Assembly: GCF_013032455.1 (NCBI RefSeq)
Contig: NZ_WQCF01000004.1
Location: forward strand, 1-64,000
From: Ruegeria atlantica
GTDB lineage: Bacteria; Pseudomonadota; Alphaproteobacteria; Rhodobacterales; Rhodobacteraceae
Direction of reading: 5' to 3'
Length of the DNA stretch: 64,000 nt
Below, piece after piece: positions 11,179 to 52,264 of the stretch. The notes below the pieces were generated by a model, which was given only the letters and a program-made list of their open reading frames with translations, was not told the DNA's origin and did no database searches. Both the position numbers and the translations under genes were made by a program. Positions within the stretch are counted from its first letter, which is position 1. Every line of letters begins with the position of its first letter.

Positions 11179-11262
11179 GGGCGACAGGCCGCAAGGTGTG
11201 GCAGGGGACTGTAACTCCCTCGCGGAGACGCACGCCTGGTTCGATTCCAGGGTCGCCCACCA
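11179..11262 (+). tRNA. tRNA-Tyr (anticodon GTA)
   Basis: A class II cloverleaf with acceptor GGGCGAC/GTCGCCC, anticodon loop CTGTAAC, a long variable arm (about 13 bases), T-arm CCTGG-TTCGATT-CCAGG and an encoded ACCA end; 84 bases. Confidence 0.95.
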
Positions 11263-15125: not shown

Positions 15126-17192
15126 TTACAGGCCCAGCGCCTTGCGCCGTTCCTCGGCAAAACCCTGCACCATACGGTCCGCGATCAGCGCCAGAATAGC
15201 CATTGCAGCCCCTGCCGAGATACCAAGCCCGACATCCGCCTGCCCCAGCGCCAGATAGATCGACTGACCCAGACCGGTGGTCCCGATCAACGCCGCGATC
15301 ACCAGCATGGCGAAGGCGTAAAGGATGGTCTGGTTCAGCCCCAACAGGATGGTTGGCGCAGCATATGGTGCACGCACGTCGCGCATGATCTGCCACTCGG
15401 TCGCGCCACTGGAAATGGCGGCTTCCATCATTTCGTCCGGTGTGTTGACCAGCCCGTGCCGCGTATAGCGGATCATTGGGACGATGGCATAGGCGCAGAT
15501 CGCCAGAAAGGCCGAGAACTCACCGATCTGAAATACCATCAGAACCGGGATCAGGAACACGAACAGAGGGATCGTCTGCAGCATATCGCAGATCGGGCGA
15601 ACCACCTTCCACACTGGCTCCCACACAGCGCTGGCCAGACCGATCAGCCCGCCAACAACGGCACAAGAGAATACGGCCGCGCCGCTGAGGTATAGCGACA
15701 ATAGCGCCCTCTCCCACAGGCCCGAAACGAGGATGGTGCAAAGCAGCCCCACCGACAATGCCGCCAGACGCCAGCCGCCCGCGACCCAACCCAAAGCGGC
15801 CGCTCCGGTCAGGACAAACGGCCAAGGCAGGTTGGCGATACCGGTTTCCAGCATGCCGATCAGGATCAGGACCACCAGCCCACCGGTCAAATGCCCGCAC
15901 CATGCCATTAGCAGGGCAATCACCGCACCGACCGCGAAGAGCCCGTAGCTCATGACAGGTGTCCACTGGAAACCCCACGTGAATGGCAGTACCGCCTGAT
16001 CCAACCCGATGCGCAAAGGCAGAAGCACGTAGAACAGCGAGTTGTTCTTCAGCGCATCCAACCACGGACCGTTCGCCTGTGTGAACGCCGTCAAGCCACT
16101 GTCCACCGCCTCGGCCATCGGGTCCAGCAGTGTCAGCTCGGACGGGTTCGGAAGCCACGCCCAGAATGCGGCTGTAAACAGCACTGTAAAACCCAGAACC
16201 GCCCAGACGACACGCTGGTCGTAACGCTTGCGCTCGGTCGCTAAGGTGCCACTCATCCGGTCGATCACCACTGCGAAAACCACGATCACCAGACCAGCCA
16301 TCAGAGATTCACCAAACTGCGCCTTGCGCATGGTTAGCAGAACTTCCCAACCAATATCGTTGAACCCGCCGATAACAGCAGCGATGATCACCATCGACAG
16401 TGCTGCCATCAGGCATTGGTTTACGCCGACCATGATCTGGGTCGCAGCCGCCGGTATTTCGACCTGAAACAGTTGCTGAAACCGCGTGCCGCCGGACATG
16501 ATGGCCGCTTCTTTGATCTCGGGCTCTACCCGTTCCAGCCCCAACATCACATTGCGCGCCATCGGTGGCGCGGCGTAGATGGCCGAGGCAATCAAACCTA
16601 CGACAGGACCGAAACCAAATAACAACAGCAACGGGGTTAGATATGCAAAGGTCGGCACGGTCTGCATTACATCCAGAACCGCCTGCACAAAGGATTTCAC
16701 CCGCGGTACTTCATTTGCAAGGATGCCAATGGCCCCGCCTACGAACAGCGCAACAGGAACTGAAACAGCAACCAGCGCCAGCGTATTCATGCTCTCGGCC
16801 CAATAGCCCGAGGCCAGCACAAAGCTGAGACCAATGAACCCCAACAAAGCCATCGGCAATCCGCCCAGATACCAGCCCAGCGCGGTCACCAGACCGATCA
16901 GGATCGGCCACGGTGTATTACCCAGCACATAATTGGCTGCATCCATCGGATAGGTCATCAAATCGGAAAACAGACGCATTGCTGGTTTGATGCCGTTCAG
17001 AAACCAGTCCAGAAACGCTCCAACCCACTGAGTTGCAGGTAGTTCCCACGCGGCAGGCCATTTGACCAGCCATGGCGCGACACTTTCCAGTGCCAGGCAC
17101 ACTGCACCTACGATCACCGTGATCAGCGCGGCCTTAGCACCCGCTGTCAGTCGCGCCGCGTGCTGAGAGGGGATGTCTGTGACCGCCGTCAT
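15126..17192 (-). CDS. Quaternary-amine ABC transporter permease, fused double permease
   Basis: 688 aa, about twice a usual ProW. Two binding-protein-dependent permease domains are fused: the first has its EAA loop at about 226-250 (EIKEAAIMSGGTRFQQLF), the second at about 587-612 (EMMEAAISSGATEWQIMRDV). Each is followed by a G.NQ...A.....I.A.IG motif. An extra pair of membrane helices precedes each. One polypeptide can thus form the whole channel. The ATG overlaps the ATPase stop (ATGA). The same order (binding protein, ATPase, fused permease) is seen in marine TMAO and betaine importers of this clade; the sequence alone does not settle the substrate. Confidence 0.9.
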   Translation of the reverse strand: MTAVTDIPSQHAARLTAGAKAALITVIVGAVCLALESVAPWLVKWPAAWELPATQWVGAFLDWFLNGIKPAMRLFSDLMTYPMDAANYVLGNTPWPILIGLVTALGWYLGGLPMALLGFIGLSFVLASGYWAESMNTLALVAVSVPVALFVGGAIGILANEVPRVKSFVQAVLDVMQTVPTFAYLTPLLLLFGFGPVVGLIASAIYAAPPMARNVMLGLERVEPEIKEAAIMSGGTRFQQLFQVEIPAAATQIMVGVNQCLMAALSMVIIAAVIGGFNDIGWEVLLTMRKAQFGESLMAGLVIVVFAVVIDRMSGTLATERKRYDQRVVWAVLGFTVLFTAAFWAWLPNPSELTLLDPMAEAVDSGLTAFTQANGPWLDALKNNSLFYVLLPLRIGLDQAVLPFTWGFQWTPVMSYGLFAVGAVIALLMAWCGHLTGGLVVLILIGMLETGIANLPWPFVLTGAAALGWVAGGWRLAALSVGLLCTILVSGLWERALLSLYLSGAAVFSCAVVGGLIGLASAVWEPVWKVVRPICDMLQTIPLFVFLIPVLMVFQIGEFSAFLAICAYAIVPMIRYTRHGLVNTPDEMMEAAISSGATEWQIMRDVRAPYAAPTILLGLNQTILYAFAMLVIAALIGTTGLGQSIYLALGQADVGLGISAGAAMAILALIADRMVQGFAEERRKALGL

Positions 17193-18241
17193 GTCTCATC
17201 CACCTGCAACGCCGCGGCCAGATCGGACGGATGGACGTTGCCAACGATGTTGCCTGCCTCATCGCGGACCGGCACGGGCTCGTACAGTTCCATGCAATGT
17301 GCCAGCGCTGCGTCCAGTGTCATCGCGGTGGTCAGGCCCGGATCGTCGGGCCCACATTCGCTTTCATCGCCACGCATGACCGAAGCAACCTTGGCATGCT
17401 GCCCTTTGGCCACGTCCTTTGAGAACTCTCGCACGTAGTCGTCGACCGGGCGCAGCACGATATCGGTCGGCGTGCCGATCTGAACGATCTTGCCATCGCG
17501 CATGATTGCGATGCGGTCGGCCAGTTTCAGCGCCTCTTGAATGTCGTGCGTGATGAAAACAATGGATTTCTTCAACGTCGCCTGGATGCGCAGGAATTCG
17601 TCCTGCAACTGGCGGCGGATCAGTGGATCAAGGGCAGAAAACGGCTCATCCAGAAACCAGATATCTGGATTCACGGCCAAGGACCGCGCGATCCCCACAC
17701 GCTGACGCTGACCACCGGAAAGCTGGCGTGGGAAGCTATCTTCGCGACCTTCCAGTCCGACCAGCGAAATCACCTCTTGTGCGCGGGCCAACCGTTCTTT
17801 GCGGCCAACGCCCTGAACGCGCAGCGGGTAAGCCACGTTTTCAGCAACCGTCATATGGGGAAACAAGCCAAAATGCTGGAATACCATGCCCAGCTTTTTA
17901 CGCCGCAGTTCCGTTAGCGCCTTCTTCGACGCGCCGATGACGTTTTCACCGTCGACTCTGATTTCGCCGCCCGTTCCTGGCAGCAATTGAGAGATACAGC
18001 GGATCAGCGTGGACTTACCCGATCCCGAAAGCCCCATGATGACGAATAATTCGCCCTCTTTGACTTCGAAATTCGCGTCCTGAACGGCGGGGATGAACCC
18101 GCTTTCGCGCAAGTCGGCAGCGGCCGTGTCAGCATCATTCCCTGACCGAGACAACGCGTCGGTCAGGGCTTTGTCAGCACCGGGGCCAAAAACCTGCCAG
18201 AGATTCTGGCAGGCAATGGCTGGTGTAGTTGCATCAGTCAC
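17189..18241 (-). CDS. Quaternary-amine ABC transporter ATP-binding protein (ProV-like)
   Basis: 350 aa, GTG start. The ABC ATPase has Walker A GLSGSGKST, Q-loop VFQHFGLFPHMTV, signature LSGGQRQRVGIARSLA, Walker B IWFLDEPFSALDP and switch His in FITHDIQEA. An insertion ahead of the P-loop (residues about 25-55, ADKALTDALSRSGNDADTAA) and a C-terminal CBS-like segment (TTAMTLDAALAHCMELYEPVPVRDEAGNIVGNV) are typical of the ProV/OpuAA branch, where CBS domains sense ionic strength; only one CBS-like unit is visible here. No good SD precedes the GTG, which follows the binding-protein stop by 10 bases, so translation is probably coupled. Confidence 0.93.
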   Translation of the reverse strand: MTDATTPAIACQNLWQVFGPGADKALTDALSRSGNDADTAAADLRESGFIPAVQDANFEVKEGELFVIMGLSGSGKSTLIRCISQLLPGTGGEIRVDGENVIGASKKALTELRRKKLGMVFQHFGLFPHMTVAENVAYPLRVQGVGRKERLARAQEVISLVGLEGREDSFPRQLSGGQRQRVGIARSLAVNPDIWFLDEPFSALDPLIRRQLQDEFLRIQATLKKSIVFITHDIQEALKLADRIAIMRDGKIVQIGTPTDIVLRPVDDYVREFSKDVAKGQHAKVASVMRGDESECGPDDPGLTTAMTLDAALAHCMELYEPVPVRDEAGNIVGNVHPSDLAAALQVDET

Positions 18242-18251
18242 TTAAGCAGGC

Positions 18252-19202
18252 TCACTGAGTTGCCGCGTCAACGACCGGACGCCATTTGCCTTCGTTCTCG
18301 GCCATCCATGCGGCGACGACCTCTTCGACGGAGCCGCCATCAACGTCGATTGCGCCCATCATCGGCTGTTGGTCTTCGACCGCCAGTTGATAGTTGGTCA
18401 GGATCTCATAGGCGGCTGGCCATTTGTCCGCCATGCCGCTCCACCCTGCCTTGAAAATACGCGAGGGCGAGAAATCACAATCATTCACCGCATTCGGGTT
18501 CGGACCCCAAGCCGGATCGGTAAAGCAAGCCTCCTCGCCTGCGGGTAGGTCCACAAACTGCACGTCATAGGCGGACATCGCCCAATGCGGCTGCCAGAAT
18601 GTGATCAACAGGGGCGATTTCCGCTCGGTCGAAGCACGCAGTTCAGCGATCAGAGCGCCTTCGGAACCCGCAGGCACAGCTTTGAAGGGAAGTTCCAATC
18701 CGGTCATGCGATCCGCGCCGGGTGTGCCCCAATCCGCCGGATAATCGACAAGACGACCGCCCGGCAGCGTTTCAGCCGTAGCAAATACCTGCGCGCAGTC
18801 CTTCAACGCTTCCCACGCAGGCAGACCTGGGCACAGGTCGGCGACATGCGCCGGGTATGCAATACCCTCTTTGGCGTCCAGCCCCAGATCACCGATTTCG
18901 ACAACAGTGCCTTCTTCGATTTTCTTGGCGTATTCGTCGGATACGTTGGACGACCAGATTTCCAGCGTCGCGTCGATGTCACCATCGGCCAGGGCCTGGA
19001 ATTGGTTCATCATGCCTGCAGTGACGTACTCCACGTTGTAACCTGCGGCTTTCAGCATTTCGCCTGCAACATGGGTGGTGACGTGCTGACCGGTCCATTC
19101 GTTGATCGCCAGTTTGATCGGTTCATCCACGGCGCCCATATCAGCGGCATACGCGGAACTGGCAACGGCCATTGCCAACAGGCTTACACTAAGTTTTTTC
19201 AT
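18252..19202 (-). CDS. Quaternary-amine (glycine betaine/choline/TMAO-type) ABC transporter substrate-binding protein
   Basis: About 316 aa from ATG 19202, chosen because GGGAG is 8 bases before it; the ATG two codons upstream (19208) is too close to that SD. The signal peptide is MKKLSVSLLAMAVASSAYA. The mature OpuAC-type fold begins EPIKLAINEWTGQHVTTHVAGEMLKAAGY, with further aromatic candidates for an amine cage: EIWSSNVSDEY, DYPADWG, FWQPHWAMSAYDVQFVDLP and WGPNP. Four cysteines (DLCPG/KDCAQ, EEACF/NDCDF) may form disulfides. It closely resembles TMAO-binding TmoX and glycine-betaine binders of Roseobacters. Which substrate is preferred cannot be told here, though a BetI-like site upstream favours choline or betaine. 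Confidence 0.9.
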   Translation of the reverse strand: MKKLSVSLLAMAVASSAYAADMGAVDEPIKLAINEWTGQHVTTHVAGEMLKAAGYNVEYVTAGMMNQFQALADGDIDATLEIWSSNVSDEYAKKIEEGTVVEIGDLGLDAKEGIAYPAHVADLCPGLPAWEALKDCAQVFATAETLPGGRLVDYPADWGTPGADRMTGLELPFKAVPAGSEGALIAELRASTERKSPLLITFWQPHWAMSAYDVQFVDLPAGEEACFTDPAWGPNPNAVNDCDFSPSRIFKAGWSGMADKWPAAYEILTNYQLAVEDQQPMMGAIDVDGGSVEEVVAAWMAENEGKWRPVVDAATQ

Positions 19203-19436
19203 CGACATTTCTCCCTGTCATATTTTGTATTTGCCCACCCGGCGCGAAGTCTGGCACCGGAAAGCTTGTCTAACGACAATACCATGTCGCAACATGCACA
19301 AAATCAGCCGGAAAAGGGAAGTGAACTGTTCGAGCTAGAGCGGATTTATCGCCATATAGCCCAACAAAATTCCCCCCACCTGCTGCGTCGTGCAGAACGC
19401 TCAGCCCCCGGATTTCGTATTTTCTGCGGCTTGAGG

Positions 19437-19456
19437 TTGACTGACGAGTCAATCAG
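19437..19456. promoter_or_regulatory. Candidate BetI-type operator in the region between the ABC operon and tag
   Basis: TTGACTGACGAGTCAATCAG, containing the perfect inverted repeat TTGACT-GACG-AGTCAA. It agrees at 15 of 20 positions with the element upstream of betI at 52245-52264. It lies about 235 bases upstream of the binding-protein start and 164 upstream of the tag-like gene. The rest of the 417-bp gap (19203-19619) has a pyrimidine-rich stretch (19466-19520) and no gene that I can support. Confidence 0.5.
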
Positions 19457-19619
19457 AAACCCGATTCCCCCTTTTTGTCGAGCATTTCTTTTTCTTTTCC
19501 GCTGTTTTTTTCTGCCTTGTTTCAAACTTGGCAGGATCGGTTACGCGTAAAGCGATCAAGATTATGGGCCTTGAAACTGCGCGCCCAACACGCAAGCTTG
19601 CCAATGGAGGACCCTGCAG

Positions 19620-20282
19620 ATGCATCACTTCGACGAGATCTTCACCATGGCCGCGAACCGCCACGGCGGTCCGGGCGCTCTGAACGAAAAGCTGAGCAAA
19701 CCCAAAAGCATAACTGAGCTGGCTGAAATGCCGGATGATCGCTGGTTGTCTATTATCACCAAGACCATCTTTCAGGCAGGGTTCAACTGGAAGGTCATCG
19801 AAAACAAATGGGAGGGGTTCGAGACTGCCTTTGACGGGTTCGACGTTGGGCGCTGTGCATTCATGGATGATGAGAAATTCGATACCCTGCTGCAGGACAA
19901 GCGCATTGTACGAAACGGCACCAAGATCGCCGCTGTTCGGGACAATGCGGCTTTTCTGCTAGAGCTGCGTCAGGAAGGCGGAGTAGGACACATTCTGGGC
20001 GGGTGGCCTTCGACCGACTACATTGGCCTGCTCGCGATGCTGGGCAAGCGCGGCTCACGCCTTGGCGGAGCCTCGGCCCAATATGCGATGCGGTTTGCTG
20101 GGCGCGACAGTTTCATCCTGTCGCAGGATGTAACAGCTCGCCTGATTTCTGAAGGTATCGTCGACAAAGCGCCGAGTTCGAAAAAGGCAATGGCAGCCGT
20201 ACAAGACGCCTTCAACACATGGATGGATCAATCCGGGCGGTCGCTGACCGAAATCAGCCGCGTTTTGGCGATGAGCCTGTGA
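19620..20282 (+). CDS. DNA-3-methyladenine glycosylase I family protein (Tag-like)
   Basis: 220 aa, helix-hairpin-helix superfamily glycosylase by overall similarity. Recognisable blocks are KTIFQAGFNWKVIENKWEGFETAFDGFDV, corresponding to Tag's '...AGLSW..VL.KR..FR.AF..FD', then ALYVRNGTKIAAVRDNAAFLLEL-type 'RIVRNGTKIAAVRDNA'. The Cys/His residues that hold zinc at the termini of E. coli Tag are not apparent, so it belongs to a divergent branch. The role would be excision of alkylated bases. GGAGG precedes the ATG by 8. It is divergent from the osmolyte operon. Confidence 0.82.
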   Translation: MHHFDEIFTMAANRHGGPGALNEKLSKPKSITELAEMPDDRWLSIITKTIFQAGFNWKVIENKWEGFETAFDGFDVGRCAFMDDEKFDTLLQDKRIVRNGTKIAAVRDNAAFLLELRQEGGVGHILGGWPSTDYIGLLAMLGKRGSRLGGASAQYAMRFAGRDSFILSQDVTARLISEGIVDKAPSSKKAMAAVQDAFNTWMDQSGRSLTEISRVLAMSL

Positions 20283-26197: not shown

Positions 26198-26364
26198 TTT
26201 GAACCTTTAAAGGTGAATTTGGACTTCAAAGGTCATTATTCCAAAGCCCCGCCGGGGGCAATCGGCCATTGGTGATTTTGCGACCCGAAGCCGGTCGGTT
26301 TTCTGATTGACCCACCAGTTAGGGTTTTCGATGGTATCGACAGTGTAAAACCAATGAGGCACCA

Positions 26365-48389: not shown

Positions 48390-50048
48390 TCAACGCTGCG
48401 CTGTCGCCCATGCCGGGTGAATCCACGGGCGGTCATTGGCTTTCGGCAGGGATTCCTTGCCCAACAGGTGATCCGATATCTTCTCCCCTACCATGATCGA
48501 CGGCGCGTTGAGGTTGCCGTTGGTGATCTGAGGGAAAATCGAGCTGTCGGCGACGCGCAACCCGTCAACGCCGATCACACGGCCCTCCGGATCAACCACT
48601 GCATTTTTGTCATCGGCGCGGCCCATACGGCAGGTACCGCAGGGGTGGTAAGCACTCTCGGCATGTTCGGCGATGAACCCATTCAGTTCCTCGTCCGTCT
48701 GCACATCAGCACCCGGTTGGATTTCCTTGCCCGCATAGGGTTTGAACGCGTCTTGCCCGAAAATCTCGCGGGTCAGGCGGATACATTTGCGGAAATCCTC
48801 CCAATCCTTTTCGTGGCTCATATAGTTGAACCGGATCATAGGAGCATCCTCGGGCTGGTCCGAGCGCAGCTTGACCGCCCCGCGCGAGGGCGAGCGCATC
48901 GGCCCCACATGCGCCTGGAAGCCATGCCCTTCGGCCGCAGCCTGCCCATCGTAACGCACGGCGATCGGCAGGAAGTGATACTGGATATCCGGGTATTCCA
49001 CCCCCGGATTGGACCGAATGAATGCCGCGCTTTCGAACTGGTTCGATGCACCAAGCCCGGTTTTGGTAAACAACCATTGCGCCCCGATCAGGCCCTTGCT
49101 GAACAGATTCCAGTGCTTATACAGCGTGATCGGCTGCAGCGAAGCCTGCTGGATATACAGTTCCAGATGGTCCTGTAGGTTTGCACCCACGCCGGGGCGG
49201 TCAGCAACAACCTCAATTCCATGCTCTGCCAGATGAGCCGCCGGACCGATCCCCGACAACATCAGCAACTTGGGAGAGTTTATCGAGGACGCGGCAAGCA
49301 CCACCTCGCGTCGGGCGCGGATGATCTCCTTGTTGCCGCCGCGGATCAGCTCAACGCCGGTCGCACGGCCGTTTTCCATGACCACGCGCGACGCTAGACC
49401 ACGCACGATATCGCAATTGTCGCGCTTTAGCGCAGGCTTCAGGTAAGCATTCGCTGCAGACCAGCGCCGTCCTTTCCAGACGGTCTGCTCCATCGGGCCG
49501 AAACCTTCCTGTTTTTCGCCGTTGTAGTCGCCTGTAACTTCGTAACCCGCCTGCTGCCCAGCATCGACAAAGGCTTGGAACAGAGGATTCTCACGCGGGC
49601 CGCGCGACACATGCAGCGGTCCGTCTTTACCTCGCCACTCTGCATCACCGCCATGACCGCCATCGTGCCATGTTTCCATGCGTTTGAAATAGGGCAGCAC
49701 GTCCGAGTATGACCATCCATCGGCGCCCATCTCGGCCCAAGTATCAAAGTCACGCGCATGGCCGCGCACATAAACCATGCCGTTGATCGAGGACGACCCG
49801 CCAATCACTTTGCCGCGTGGGCAGGCCAGTTGGCGATTGTTCAGGTGTGGCTCGGGCTCGGACCGGTAACCCCAGTCATACATCGGCATGTTCATCGGAT
49901 AGCTCAGCGCCGCGGGCATCTGGATGAACGGCCCGGCGTCGGTGCCGCCATGTTCGATCACCACAACCGAAGCTCCGGCTTTGCTTAGGCGATAAGCCAT
50001 TGCACAACCGGCGGATCCGGCGCCAACAATGACGAAATCTGCTTCCAT
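48390..50048 (-). CDS. betA: Choline dehydrogenase
   Basis: 552 aa, GMC oxidoreductase. [31 protein letters not shown] is the FAD fold, and [51 protein letters not shown] the GMC signature 1. GREIFG... [12 protein letters not shown] holds the catalytic His, and [32 protein letters not shown] the FAD-contacting C-terminus. It oxidises choline to betaine aldehyde at the membrane. Start 50048 has GGAGA upstream. It follows betC in the bet unit. Confidence 0.95.
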
Positions 50049-50121: not shown

Positions 50122-51630
50122 CTATTCGCCACGTGGAAAACGGGCGTTTTCCTCAACGACATTCAGATCCATGTGATTGCGCATGTACCGCTCGGACGCT
50201 TTTTGCAGCGGCTGGTAATCCCATGGGTAATAGCCACCCTGCCGTAGCGCCTCATAGACAACCCAACGACGAGCCTGACTGGCGCGCACATCCGCGTCGA
50301 ATTGATCCAAATCCCAACGCGCCTCGGATTTTGCGCGAAGGGTTTGCAGAGTTCCGGCATGAGCGGGATCACCAGCAAGGTTGATCTGTTCGTGTGGATC
50401 AGCCTCGAGATCGAACAGTTGATCCGGGTCCAAGGCGCAGCGGTTGTATTTCCATTTGCCATAGCGCAGCGAAACCAATGGGGCATAAGACGCTTCAGCC
50501 GCGTATTCCATGGCCACAGGCGCGGTACGCTCATCCCCCTTCGCCAAAGGCACAAGGTCTTCACCATCTGTCCAAGGTGCGATTTCGGCCATATCGACAC
50601 CCGCCAATGCGCCCAGTGTCGGGGTCACATCAATTGTCGAAACCGGAGTATCGATCCGGCCCGCAGGCAGATCCGGGGCCGAGATCATCAGCGGCACGCG
50701 CGCCGAGCCTTCATAAAAGTTCATTTTGAACCATAGACCCCGTTCGCCCAGCATATCTCCGTGATCCGAGACAAAGAGGATGATTGCCTCTTGTCGCGTG
50801 GTTTCCAGCACTTCGAGGATTTCACCGATCTTGTCATCCAGATACGAGATATTCGCGAAATAGGCGCGGCGAGATTTGTGGATATCTTCCTCGGTAATGT
50901 CAAAGCTGCGCCAGTCATTGGCGTCGAAGATACGCTTGGAATGTGGATCCTGATTGTCATAGCCAAGGTCTGCAACTTCGGGCAAAAGGTGCTCGCAGTC
51001 TTCGTACAAGTCCCAATATTTCCGACGTGCCACATAGGGGTCGTGCGGATGGGTGAAGCTGACGGTCACGCACCACGGTCGGTCGTCCTTGCCACGCGCC
51101 AGATCGTAAAGCTTGGCCTTCGCGTTGTAGGCGACCTCGTCATCATACTCCATCTGGTTGGAAATCTCGGCCGCACCCGCGCCCGTTACCGAGCCCATAT
51201 TGTGATACCACCAGTCGATACGTTCGCCCGGCTTGCGGTAATCCGGCGTCCAGCCGAAATCAGCGGGGTAGATGTCGGTGGTCAGGCGATCCTCGAACCC
51301 GTGCAGTTGATCGGGGCCGACAAAATGCATCTTACCGGACAGACATGTGTAATACCCGGCGCGACGCAGATGATGCGCATAGGTGGGAATGTCGCTGCGG
51401 AACTCGGCTGCGTTATCATAGACCCCGGTTCGCGAAGGCAGCTGGCCCGACATAAAGCTCGCCCGTCCCGGTGCACAGAGTGGCGAGGCTGTATAGGCGT
51501 TGGCAAACCGGGTCGACCGTTCCGCCAACTTTTTCAGGTTGGGTGCATGCAGCCAGTCTGCGGGACCGTCGGGAAAGAGGGTTCCGTTAAGCTGATCCAC
51601 CATCAGGATCAGAATGTTCGGCTTTGTCAT
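50122..51630 (-). CDS. betC: Choline-sulfatase
   Basis: 502 aa, a type I sulfatase. The formylglycine signature LCAPGRASFMSG has Cys52 to be oxidised to FGly, followed by Pro54 and Arg56. NILILMVDQLNGTLF supplies the first metal Asp; FVSDHGDMLGERGLW, with the second Asp/His, and the C-terminal choline-sulfatase extension (QARRWVVYEALRQGGYYPWDYQPLQKASERYMRNHMDLN) match BetC. It hydrolyses choline-O-sulfate to choline and sulfate, in the cytoplasm (no signal peptide). It overlaps betI by 4 bases. Confidence 0.95.
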   Translation of the reverse strand: MTKPNILILMVDQLNGTLFPDGPADWLHAPNLKKLAERSTRFANAYTASPLCAPGRASFMSGQLPSRTGVYDNAAEFRSDIPTYAHHLRRAGYYTCLSGKMHFVGPDQLHGFEDRLTTDIYPADFGWTPDYRKPGERIDWWYHNMGSVTGAGAAEISNQMEYDDEVAYNAKAKLYDLARGKDDRPWCVTVSFTHPHDPYVARRKYWDLYEDCEHLLPEVADLGYDNQDPHSKRIFDANDWRSFDITEEDIHKSRRAYFANISYLDDKIGEILEVLETTRQEAIILFVSDHGDMLGERGLWFKMNFYEGSARVPLMISAPDLPAGRIDTPVSTIDVTPTLGALAGVDMAEIAPWTDGEDLVPLAKGDERTAPVAMEYAAEASYAPLVSLRYGKWKYNRCALDPDQLFDLEADPHEQINLAGDPAHAGTLQTLRAKSEARWDLDQFDADVRASQARRWVVYEALRQGGYYPWDYQPLQKASERYMRNHMDLNVVEENARFPRGE

Positions 51631-52199
51631 TTTTCAGCCTCGAGCAGAGTGTTGAGGACACGCATTGCGTGGTTCACCGCCAGTTGCGGTTCTTCCGGGG
51701 CGCTCAGCGCGGCGCGGATATAAAGACCATCGATCAGAGCGATCATGTTCTCGGCAGCCTCAACCGGATCGCGCATCAAGGGGCGCAGGGCGTCGACCAG
51801 GTTGGATCGGATTCGCGCCTGATAAATCTGCCACAGACGCAAGGCGTCATCGTTGGTCTGGGCCAGGACATAAAACGTCATCCATGCCGCGATCACATCG
51901 GGCGTAAAACAGGACGGTGCAAAACAGGCCCGGATGACGGCCTGGGCCCTCTTGTTTGGGGCAGCGGCCCTCAGTTCTCCCCGCGCTTCATTCCCGAAAT
52001 CGGATAGGATGCGGCGCATAGCCGCCAGAAAGATCTGATCTTTGCCGCCGAAATAATGATGCGCCAATGCGCTGGACATTCCTGCCCGCTTGGCAATCTG
52101 GCTGACGGTCACATCGAGGGACTTTTTCGAGCCAAGCTCGGCAATCGTCGCCCTGACGATCGCGTCACGGCGGATTGGTTCCATTCCGAGTTTCGGCAT
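51627..52199 (-). CDS. betI: Transcriptional repressor BetI (TetR family)
   Basis: 190 aa. N-terminal HTH (about 8-55): RRDAIVRATIAELGSKKSLDVTVSQIAKRAGMSSALAHHYFGGKDQIFLAAMRR. The BetI-type core continues with TPDVIAAWMTFYVLAQTNDDALRLWQIYQARIRSNLVDALRPL. It represses choline-to-betaine genes until choline is present. It heads betI-betC-betA; a near-palindromic 20-bp site overlaps its promoter. Confidence 0.93.
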   Translation of the reverse strand: MPKLGMEPIRRDAIVRATIAELGSKKSLDVTVSQIAKRAGMSSALAHHYFGGKDQIFLAAMRRILSDFGNEARGELRAAAPNKRAQAVIRACFAPSCFTPDVIAAWMTFYVLAQTNDDALRLWQIYQARIRSNLVDALRPLMRDPVEAAENMIALIDGLYIRAALSAPEEPQLAVNHAMRVLNTLLEAEK

Positions 52200-52244: not shown

Positions 52245-52264
52245 TTTATTGACCCGTCAATCAA
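52245..52264. promoter_or_regulatory. Candidate BetI operator upstream of betI
   Basis: TTTATTGACCCGTCAATCAA differs at 2 of 20 positions from the perfect palindrome TTGATTGACCGGTCAATCAA. It lies 46-65 bases before the betI ATG and overlaps a minus-strand TTGACG that could be the -35 box. It resembles the site upstream of the ABC operon (19437-19456). Confidence 0.65.

Follow-up and report, generated by a model that had tools for sequence, protein, structure and literature searches.

A predicted BetI1-type operator is conserved before an OpuAC-type ABC importer operon of Ruegeria and appears to be exchanged for a BetI2-type box in other roseobacters

The closest described counterpart of the locus studied here is the BetI1 regulon of Ruegeria pomeroyi DSS-3. 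According to the sections of the DSS-3 report that deal with BetI1, DNase I footprinting placed the repressor on the palindrome ATTGACG*CGTCAAT before betI1-betC, betB is also under BetI1 via a similar palindrome, choline is the effector, and choXWV adjoins some betI1 genes; these sections name betI1C and betB as targets and do not name the ABC operon described below (PMC12442346). Among open-licence papers, in the parts that treat BetI1, we found no report of this operon as a target. BetI controls betT genes in E. coli, Acinetobacter and Pseudomonas, and in the Vibrio betIBA-proXWV system it controls both choline oxidation and import, the importer being an ABC transporter, as outlined in passages of PMC7876524. 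In Bacillus subtilis, the regulatory sections of PMC7396694 describe one repressor, GbsR, that governs betaine synthesis together with a separate ABC choline importer, opuB.

The window, that is, the whole 64-kb stretch of DNA analysed here, shares the repressor type, the palindrome and, by prediction, the choline logic of R. pomeroyi DSS-3. It encodes on the minus strand a choline-responsive TetR repressor of the BetI1 type (betI, 51627–52199; above the cut-off of NCBIfam TIGR03384), choline sulfatase (betC, 50122–51630) and choline dehydrogenase (betA, 48390–50048). An ABC operon on the same strand consists of a periplasmic substrate-binding protein (SBP) of the OpuAC family PF04069 (18252–19208), an ATPase subunit of the betaine/proline/choline family (17189–18241; above the TIGR01186 cut-off) and a double permease subunit matched in two stretches (15126–17192). 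Whereas the Vibrio importer lies inside the bet operon, this one is located 33 kb away and has a box of its own; the BetI-controlled transporter of E. coli is a BCCT protein, whereas the candidate in the window is an ABC importer; and GbsR is a MarR-type regulator acting by roadblock (PMC7396694), unlike the TetR-type BetI of the window.

The box before the ABC operon occupies positions 19437–19456 and reads CTGATTGACTCGTCAGTCAA on the minus strand; its counterpart before betI-betC-betA, recognised by sequence match, lies at 52245–52264, also on the minus strand. The original prediction had proposed this pair, with 15 of 20 identical positions, as a link between the importer and the bet regulon, and both the coordinates and the identity were reproduced. 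The two 20-mers equal their own reverse complements at 14 and 16 of 20 positions. With a matrix made from betI boxes only, the betI site scored 30.8 and the ABC site 21.7 in the 64-kb window, and the third-best place, inside the permease gene, reached 14.4, in agreement with the earlier claim that the window holds no third good match. Thirty Markov-1 random windows of equal length gave a matrix maximum of 18.3 and a mean of 9.5. The ABC box matches TTGATTGACNNGTCAATCAA at 16/18 positions and the footprinted ATTGACG.CGTCAAT palindrome at 12/14. A weak box-like site was also noted at 26303–26322 of the window.

Searching the whole genome of the strain with up to two mismatches to TTGATTGACNNGTCAATCAA returned three places: betI, the ABC site and, outside the window, a box 66 bp before a betB-like gene. 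One fourth place appeared at three mismatches, where a reversed control pattern also found one. The betB-like gene was recognised by its translation; in two other loci with the same box placement (L117 and L119), the gene is above the betaine-aldehyde dehydrogenase cut-off. In R. pomeroyi SZCCDBG043, exactly three places were found at up to three mismatches (betI1, betB and the ABC operon; reversed control, 0), so that the orthologous ABC operon carries the third and last box there. The betB box of this strain lies 64 bp before the ATG, and the box upstream of R. pomeroyi betI1 contains ATTGACGCGTCAAT, the palindrome inside the published BetI1 footprint. Roseovarius nubinhibens has exactly two places, before betI and the ABC operon, with identical 20-mers (control, 0), and Ruegeria genome G241 likewise has boxes at betI and the ABC operon only. 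With up to three mismatches allowed, two further genomes, G247 and G240, contain five and six box-like places; all but two to four of these per genome were read in context.

We then analyzed the conservation of the box before orthologous ABC operons, on which the proposed link turned. Among 41 genomes of the genus, 32 encode a close SBP orthologue (at least 89% identity), and loci were read for 30 of these. The box was present in 30/30, with 15–17 of 18 matches, 238–273 bp before the start of the match, and also in one further genus locus (L063). In a wider set of named loci, the best 80 of 346, a box matching at least 15/18 positions was found in 44. These include all 38 loci of the Ruegeria block (L132–L168 and L208), three of which (L140, L155 and L164) bear neither a Ruegeria nor a Silicibacter name; the remainder belong to Tropicibacter, Falsiruegeria and Roseovarius. 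Three more loci (L172, L190 and L195) have the box at 14/18. In 2400 shuffled upstream regions, no match of 15 or more and a single match of 14 occurred. Together with the genome-wide rank of the site, this conservation supports the box as a likely link between the ABC importer and the bet regulon.

In the genus alignment, from which two rows (L029 and L032) were left out, mean pairwise identity was 0.88 within the box versus 0.41 in the 20 bp on its ABC side. The 20 bp on its far side, within which a putative promoter spacer lies, showed 0.62; the far-side stretch containing TCGACA (0.62–0.67) equalled the tag coding stretch (0.67), and the rest of the spacer down to a second conserved element showed 0.35–0.45. 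When whole loci were scanned, the ABC upstream region ranked first in 53/80 loci with the betI1 matrix, in 50/80 with a matrix for BetI2-type boxes and in 67/80 with either, compared with a chance expectation of about 2% per matrix, although some of these first ranks are weak; in the other 13/80 it was first by neither. Two plasmid-borne relatives of the operon, in Roseovarius THAF8 (L306) and Shinella (L307), have neither box type, and BetI control is thus not universal. In L032 (genome G014), the SBP orthologue contains one internal TAG, and the box is kept at 16/18. In L180 and L193, the permease is matched in part, beginning about 1.1 kb and 0.35 kb, respectively, beyond where the ATPase match stops, which may reflect an insertion or divergence of the 5′ part.

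The original prediction was troubled by the distance between the box and the SBP start and raised a role in controlling the divergent neighbour, a tag-like DNA-3-methyladenine glycosylase gene (19620–20282, plus strand; above the Pfam and below the NCBIfam cut-off). The distance is real but specific to one Ruegeria lineage: from box start to ABC start it is about 250 bp in most Ruegeria, 98–114 bp in R. pomeroyi and allied species and 35–42 bp in Roseovarius, so that the worry does not extend to the lineages where the interval is 35–114 bp. If the box served tag, or both genes, its proximity to the ABC operon would be incidental. In the window the box is indeed nearer to tag (163 bp) than to the SBP start (about 230–250 bp), and tag is the divergent neighbour in most long-leader Ruegeria loci. 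However, in R. pomeroyi and others tag begins 697–1357 bp away while the box stays near the ABC start (98–105 bp in R. pomeroyi and its allies), and the loci of Roseovarius, L148 and L161, in which tag was not found, keep the box. Since the box follows the ABC operon where tag is distant or was not found in the locus, we assign it to the ABC operon and regard control of tag as very improbable.

Comparison with relatives suggests a promoter at the box. A predicted −35 hexamer, TCGACA, lies 19 bp before the box (19476–19481, minus strand), and by analogy with relatives a predicted −10 hexamer, TCTGAT (4/6; 19452–19457, minus strand), overlaps the operator. Of the 44 named loci with a strong BetI1-type box, 31 have TCGACA at most 45 bp to the 5′ side of the box and 13 lack it; in a best-pair hexamer search, the relatives usually showed TGTGAT as the −10-like hexamer, one base upstream of the box start. 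A generic sigma-70 promoter scan of the window returned no site on either strand. Reading the TCGACA and TGTGAT-like hexamers as −35 and −10, we predict that a repressor bound to the box would cover the −10/start region.

All 41 genus genomes encode BetI1. The sequence SSALAHHYFGGK, which we take to be the recognition-helix region of BetI1, is identical in the BetI of the window, R. pomeroyi BetI1 and two further BetI1 proteins. In a sample of 32 genomes hand-picked from the 80 named loci, 17 encode a BetI1 relative (at least 51% identity) and 15 only distant ones (at most 37%). A box of at least 15/18 was found in 12/17 genomes with and 0/15 without a BetI1 relative (Fisher p = 2.9 × 10⁻⁵, kinship ignored), so that all 12 site-bearing genomes have BetI1; at 14/18 or better, the counts were 13/17 and 1/15 (p = 8.1 × 10⁻⁵, kinship ignored), the two additional genomes being G257, with a BetI1 relative, and G250, without BetI1. 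Four genomes (G254, G255, G265 and G266) have a BetI1 relative and no BetI1-type box.

These observations led us to what occupies the ABC upstream region where BetI1 is lacking. BetI2 and BetI1 are 33% identical in R. pomeroyi, and their helix regions differ (SAASINYYFGSK in BetI2 versus SSALAHHYFGGK in BetI1). A BetI2 matrix was built from 12 boxes chosen by eye before betI2-type genes of BetI1-lacking genomes and run over the ABC upstream regions, leaving out the tested genome's own box and shuffling each region 100 times. Among the BetI1-lacking genomes, a BetI2-type box beat all 100 shuffles in 11/15 (scores 12.6–27.7), was reached by two or three shuffles in 3/15 and was missing in 1/15. 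Among BetI1-bearing controls, the same matrix beat all shuffles in 6/17. Five of these scored 9.6–12.7, the matrix there picking up the BetI1 box, which is similar; the sixth, G254 (17.5), is a Leisingera that encodes both BetI types. Low scores therefore do not separate the two box types cleanly, and the claim rests on the strongest cases. In a Rhodobacteraceae MAG (L210) and a Shimia MAG (L211), TTAAATGACCATTTAA stands identically before betI2 and the ABC operon. The half-site AAACTTGAAC, shared by R. pomeroyi BetI2 boxes according to the section on that regulator (PMC12442346), precedes the ABC operon of Leisingera aquimarina (L199). BetI1-type boxes are found in Ruegeria, Tropicibacter, Falsiruegeria and Roseovarius; BetI2-type boxes are found, without BetI1, in Leisingera, Shimia, Pseudophaeobacter, Cognatishimia and Zongyanglinia. 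On the sequences compared, it is therefore plausible that BetI2 has taken the place of BetI1 as regulator of the ABC operon through a change of operator. If so, the operon would offer a clean example for studying how regulation persists after a regulator is lost.

Taken together, we consider it highly probable that 19437–19456 is a conserved BetI1-type operator before the OpuAC-type ABC operon, with BetI binding and release by choline as the predicted behaviour, and the operon is very likely a new member of the BetI1 regulon. BetI, encoded 33 kb away, would bind the box before the operon (15126–19208) and repress it by covering the −10/start region of the TCGACA-led promoter. Release of BetI by choline would then induce quaternary-amine uptake along with betI-betC-betA and betB. 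Where BetI1 is lacking, its paralogue BetI2 would probably take over this role at the ABC operon in most of the roseobacters examined. If this is true, an importer of abundant marine bacteria gains a regulator, an inducer and a short substrate list, and the BetI1 regulon of R. pomeroyi grows from two known targets to three, matching the count of boxes that the searched R. pomeroyi genome yields when up to three mismatches are allowed. Mutants in both betI1 and betI2 have already been made in the R. pomeroyi model strain.

Another regulator could nevertheless use the box, or BetI could bind it to little effect. Arms resembling TTGAC..GTCAA occur among the operators of other TetR-family proteins too and are not exclusive to BetI, and further box-like places recur, for instance before an FAD-dependent oxidoreductase gene, so that a different TetR-family regulator with a similar half-site might act here. 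Against this stand the best places in both the strain's own genome and R. pomeroyi, which are betI, betB and the ABC operon; the identical betI and ABC 20-mers of R. nubinhibens; the way in which the box tracks the presence of BetI1; and the betI2-like box at the ABC operon in most BetI1-lacking genomes examined. We judge such a regulator improbable.

A different question is whether BetI, once bound, matters. A second conserved element lies in the putative leader of the long-leader Ruegeria (19261–19319, minus strand), with its core TTGTGCATGTTGCGACATG at 19283–19301, and might dominate control in this lineage, for example as an alternative promoter or through a leader RNA that affects the ribosome-binding site, leaving choline control minor. 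Its mean pairwise identity in the genus alignment is 0.70, the core TGTGCATGTTGC is present in 25/30 genus loci, and the sole exact copy in the strain's own genome is at the ABC leader, with two places at three mismatches; moreover, base pairing is possible between its CTTTCC stretch and the AGGGAG preceding the start codon. The pairing, however, shows no two-sided changes in any sequence, 18900–19800 has no Rfam match up to E = 1, and the element was not found in the short-leader loci L064, L065, L070 and L072, which keep the box. Dominance of this element over BetI is thus possible but unlikely. As for its nature, a known riboswitch or RNA family was rejected on the Rfam result, and a sigma-54 promoter on the GG not being constant across relatives.

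Returning to the proposed BetI-controlled import, we asked what the operon is likely to carry. The SBP scores 188.9 bits against OpuAC PF04069 (gathering cut-off, 21.2); among the matches listed, its closest named relatives are Ruegeria, with a R. lacuscaerulensis record at 100%. Against the ChoX model it stays far below the threshold (TIGR03414, 56.9 bits; curated cut-off, 379.05). The best match among solved structures is TmoX (PDB 4xz6), the OpuAC-family binding protein of the TMAO importer TmoXWV, whose pocket comprises Trp55, Trp102, Phe106, Glu131, Trp177, Phe220 and Trp222 (PMC8918994). The SBP is 38% identical to the R. pomeroyi TmoX relative, recognised by eye against the 4xz6 alignment, and keeps the four pocket Trp residues and the Glu, whereas Phe106 is replaced by Val89 and Phe220 by Thr203. 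With both Phe residues replaced, TMAO is disfavoured as the substrate, as the original prediction had anticipated. DMSP is disfavoured as well: the essential Tyr200 of DmpX corresponds to Thr203, and the SBP shares 22% identity with the DmpX pair, identified as such from the 59% identity between its members and from their agreeing residue numbers.

Gene neighbourhoods point in the same direction as the pocket. A choline sulfatase gene scoring above its cut-off lies 171 bp from the ABC operon in a Silicimonas MAG (L174), which alone among the 80 loci gave a match to five bet queries, and in Roseovarius pelagicus an annotated choline dehydrogenase directly precedes a 55% relative. On the Roseovarius plasmid (L306), the neighbours include betC, which scores above its cut-off, a regulator and an oxygenase that resemble GbdR and GbcA but score below theirs, and further enzymes; Shinella (L307) has a similar cluster without betC, and two Silicimonas loci (L192 and L203) have parts of an L306-like cluster. 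The Trp box and these choline-gene neighbours together suggest a quaternary amine as the substrate, which may be choline, choline-O-sulfate, betaine or a carnitine-like compound; choline-O-sulfate and carnitine-like amines are no less possible than the choline or glycine betaine named in the original prediction. With its GlxA/GbdR-like regulator, Rieske-type oxygenase, beta-keto acid cleavage enzyme and aldehyde dehydrogenase, the L306/L307 cluster resembles a pathway for breaking down quaternary amines.

The R. pomeroyi orthologue of the SBP, 42 kb from betI1, is probably SPO1131. This assignment was made by elimination and position: four OpuAC proteins are listed for DSS-3, the TmoX and DmpX relatives recognised in R. 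pomeroyi SZCCDBG043 differ from the SBP, whose orthologue is a third SBP type in that species, and SPOA0231 should, judging from its name, lie on the megaplasmid. In the binding experiments described in PMC10030565, SPO1131 did not bind DMSP, and a passage of PMC9938194 calls it a betaine-choline-carnitine-family ABC transporter. Figures of 100.5 and 94.1 given for a R. pomeroyi betT mutant on choline (PMC10130141, mutant data) read as percent growth loss. On this reading the mutant barely grows with choline, so that the orthologue would be insufficient for choline import in R. pomeroyi, which counts against choline as the only substrate. Passages on the proteome of choline-grown R. pomeroyi name BetABC and OpuD, and "SPO1131" is absent from the main text of that report (PMC12478193).

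Across the 41 genus genomes, the ABC operon and a BetT homologue showed no association (16 with both, 16 with the ABC operon only, 6 with BetT only and 3 with neither; Fisher p = 0.47), and replacement of BetT by the ABC operon is therefore not supported. The BetT-like gene in question encodes a 402-aa BCCT-like protein that falls just below the Pfam cut-off and looks by eye like the R. pomeroyi ORF next to betI2, the position of betT. A BetI1-type box precedes it in 21 of the 22 genus genomes that encode it (loci L280–L301, also L116, L118, L123, L125, L127 and L128; in L116 it adjoins an EamA transporter). The 22nd locus (L301), from a Ruegeria genome, has a BetI2-type box instead, its betT upstream region scoring 26.8 with the betI2 matrix versus 5.4 with the betI1 matrix, which is an independent check. 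The strain's own genome has no such protein at E = 1e-40; other BCCT genes are present there, none of them at a box of up to two mismatches. Our broader proposal is that the operon is the choline- or choline-O-sulfate-induced importer of roseobacters, handed over from BetI1 to BetI2, and that in Ruegeria without BetT, including the strain of the window, it is the main choline-regulated uptake system, possibly for choline-O-sulfate. We offer this tentatively, as a reading with somewhat less than an even chance of being right.

Several further sites were observed. The 20-mer TTGACTCACGCGTCAATAAA, a three-mismatch site at G000:C31:94554-94573 (L126), starts 65 bp before the ORF of a family-5 solute-binding protein and also occurs in two other genomes (G002 and G015). 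In a relative, at L115:1994-2013, CTGACTGGCGGGTCAATCAA lies 42 bp upstream of an FAD-dependent oxidoreductase gene, whose divergent neighbour is proS; sites like it recur in other Ruegeria genomes. The window also contains a tRNA-Tyr gene with anticodon GTA at 11179–11262 on the plus strand.
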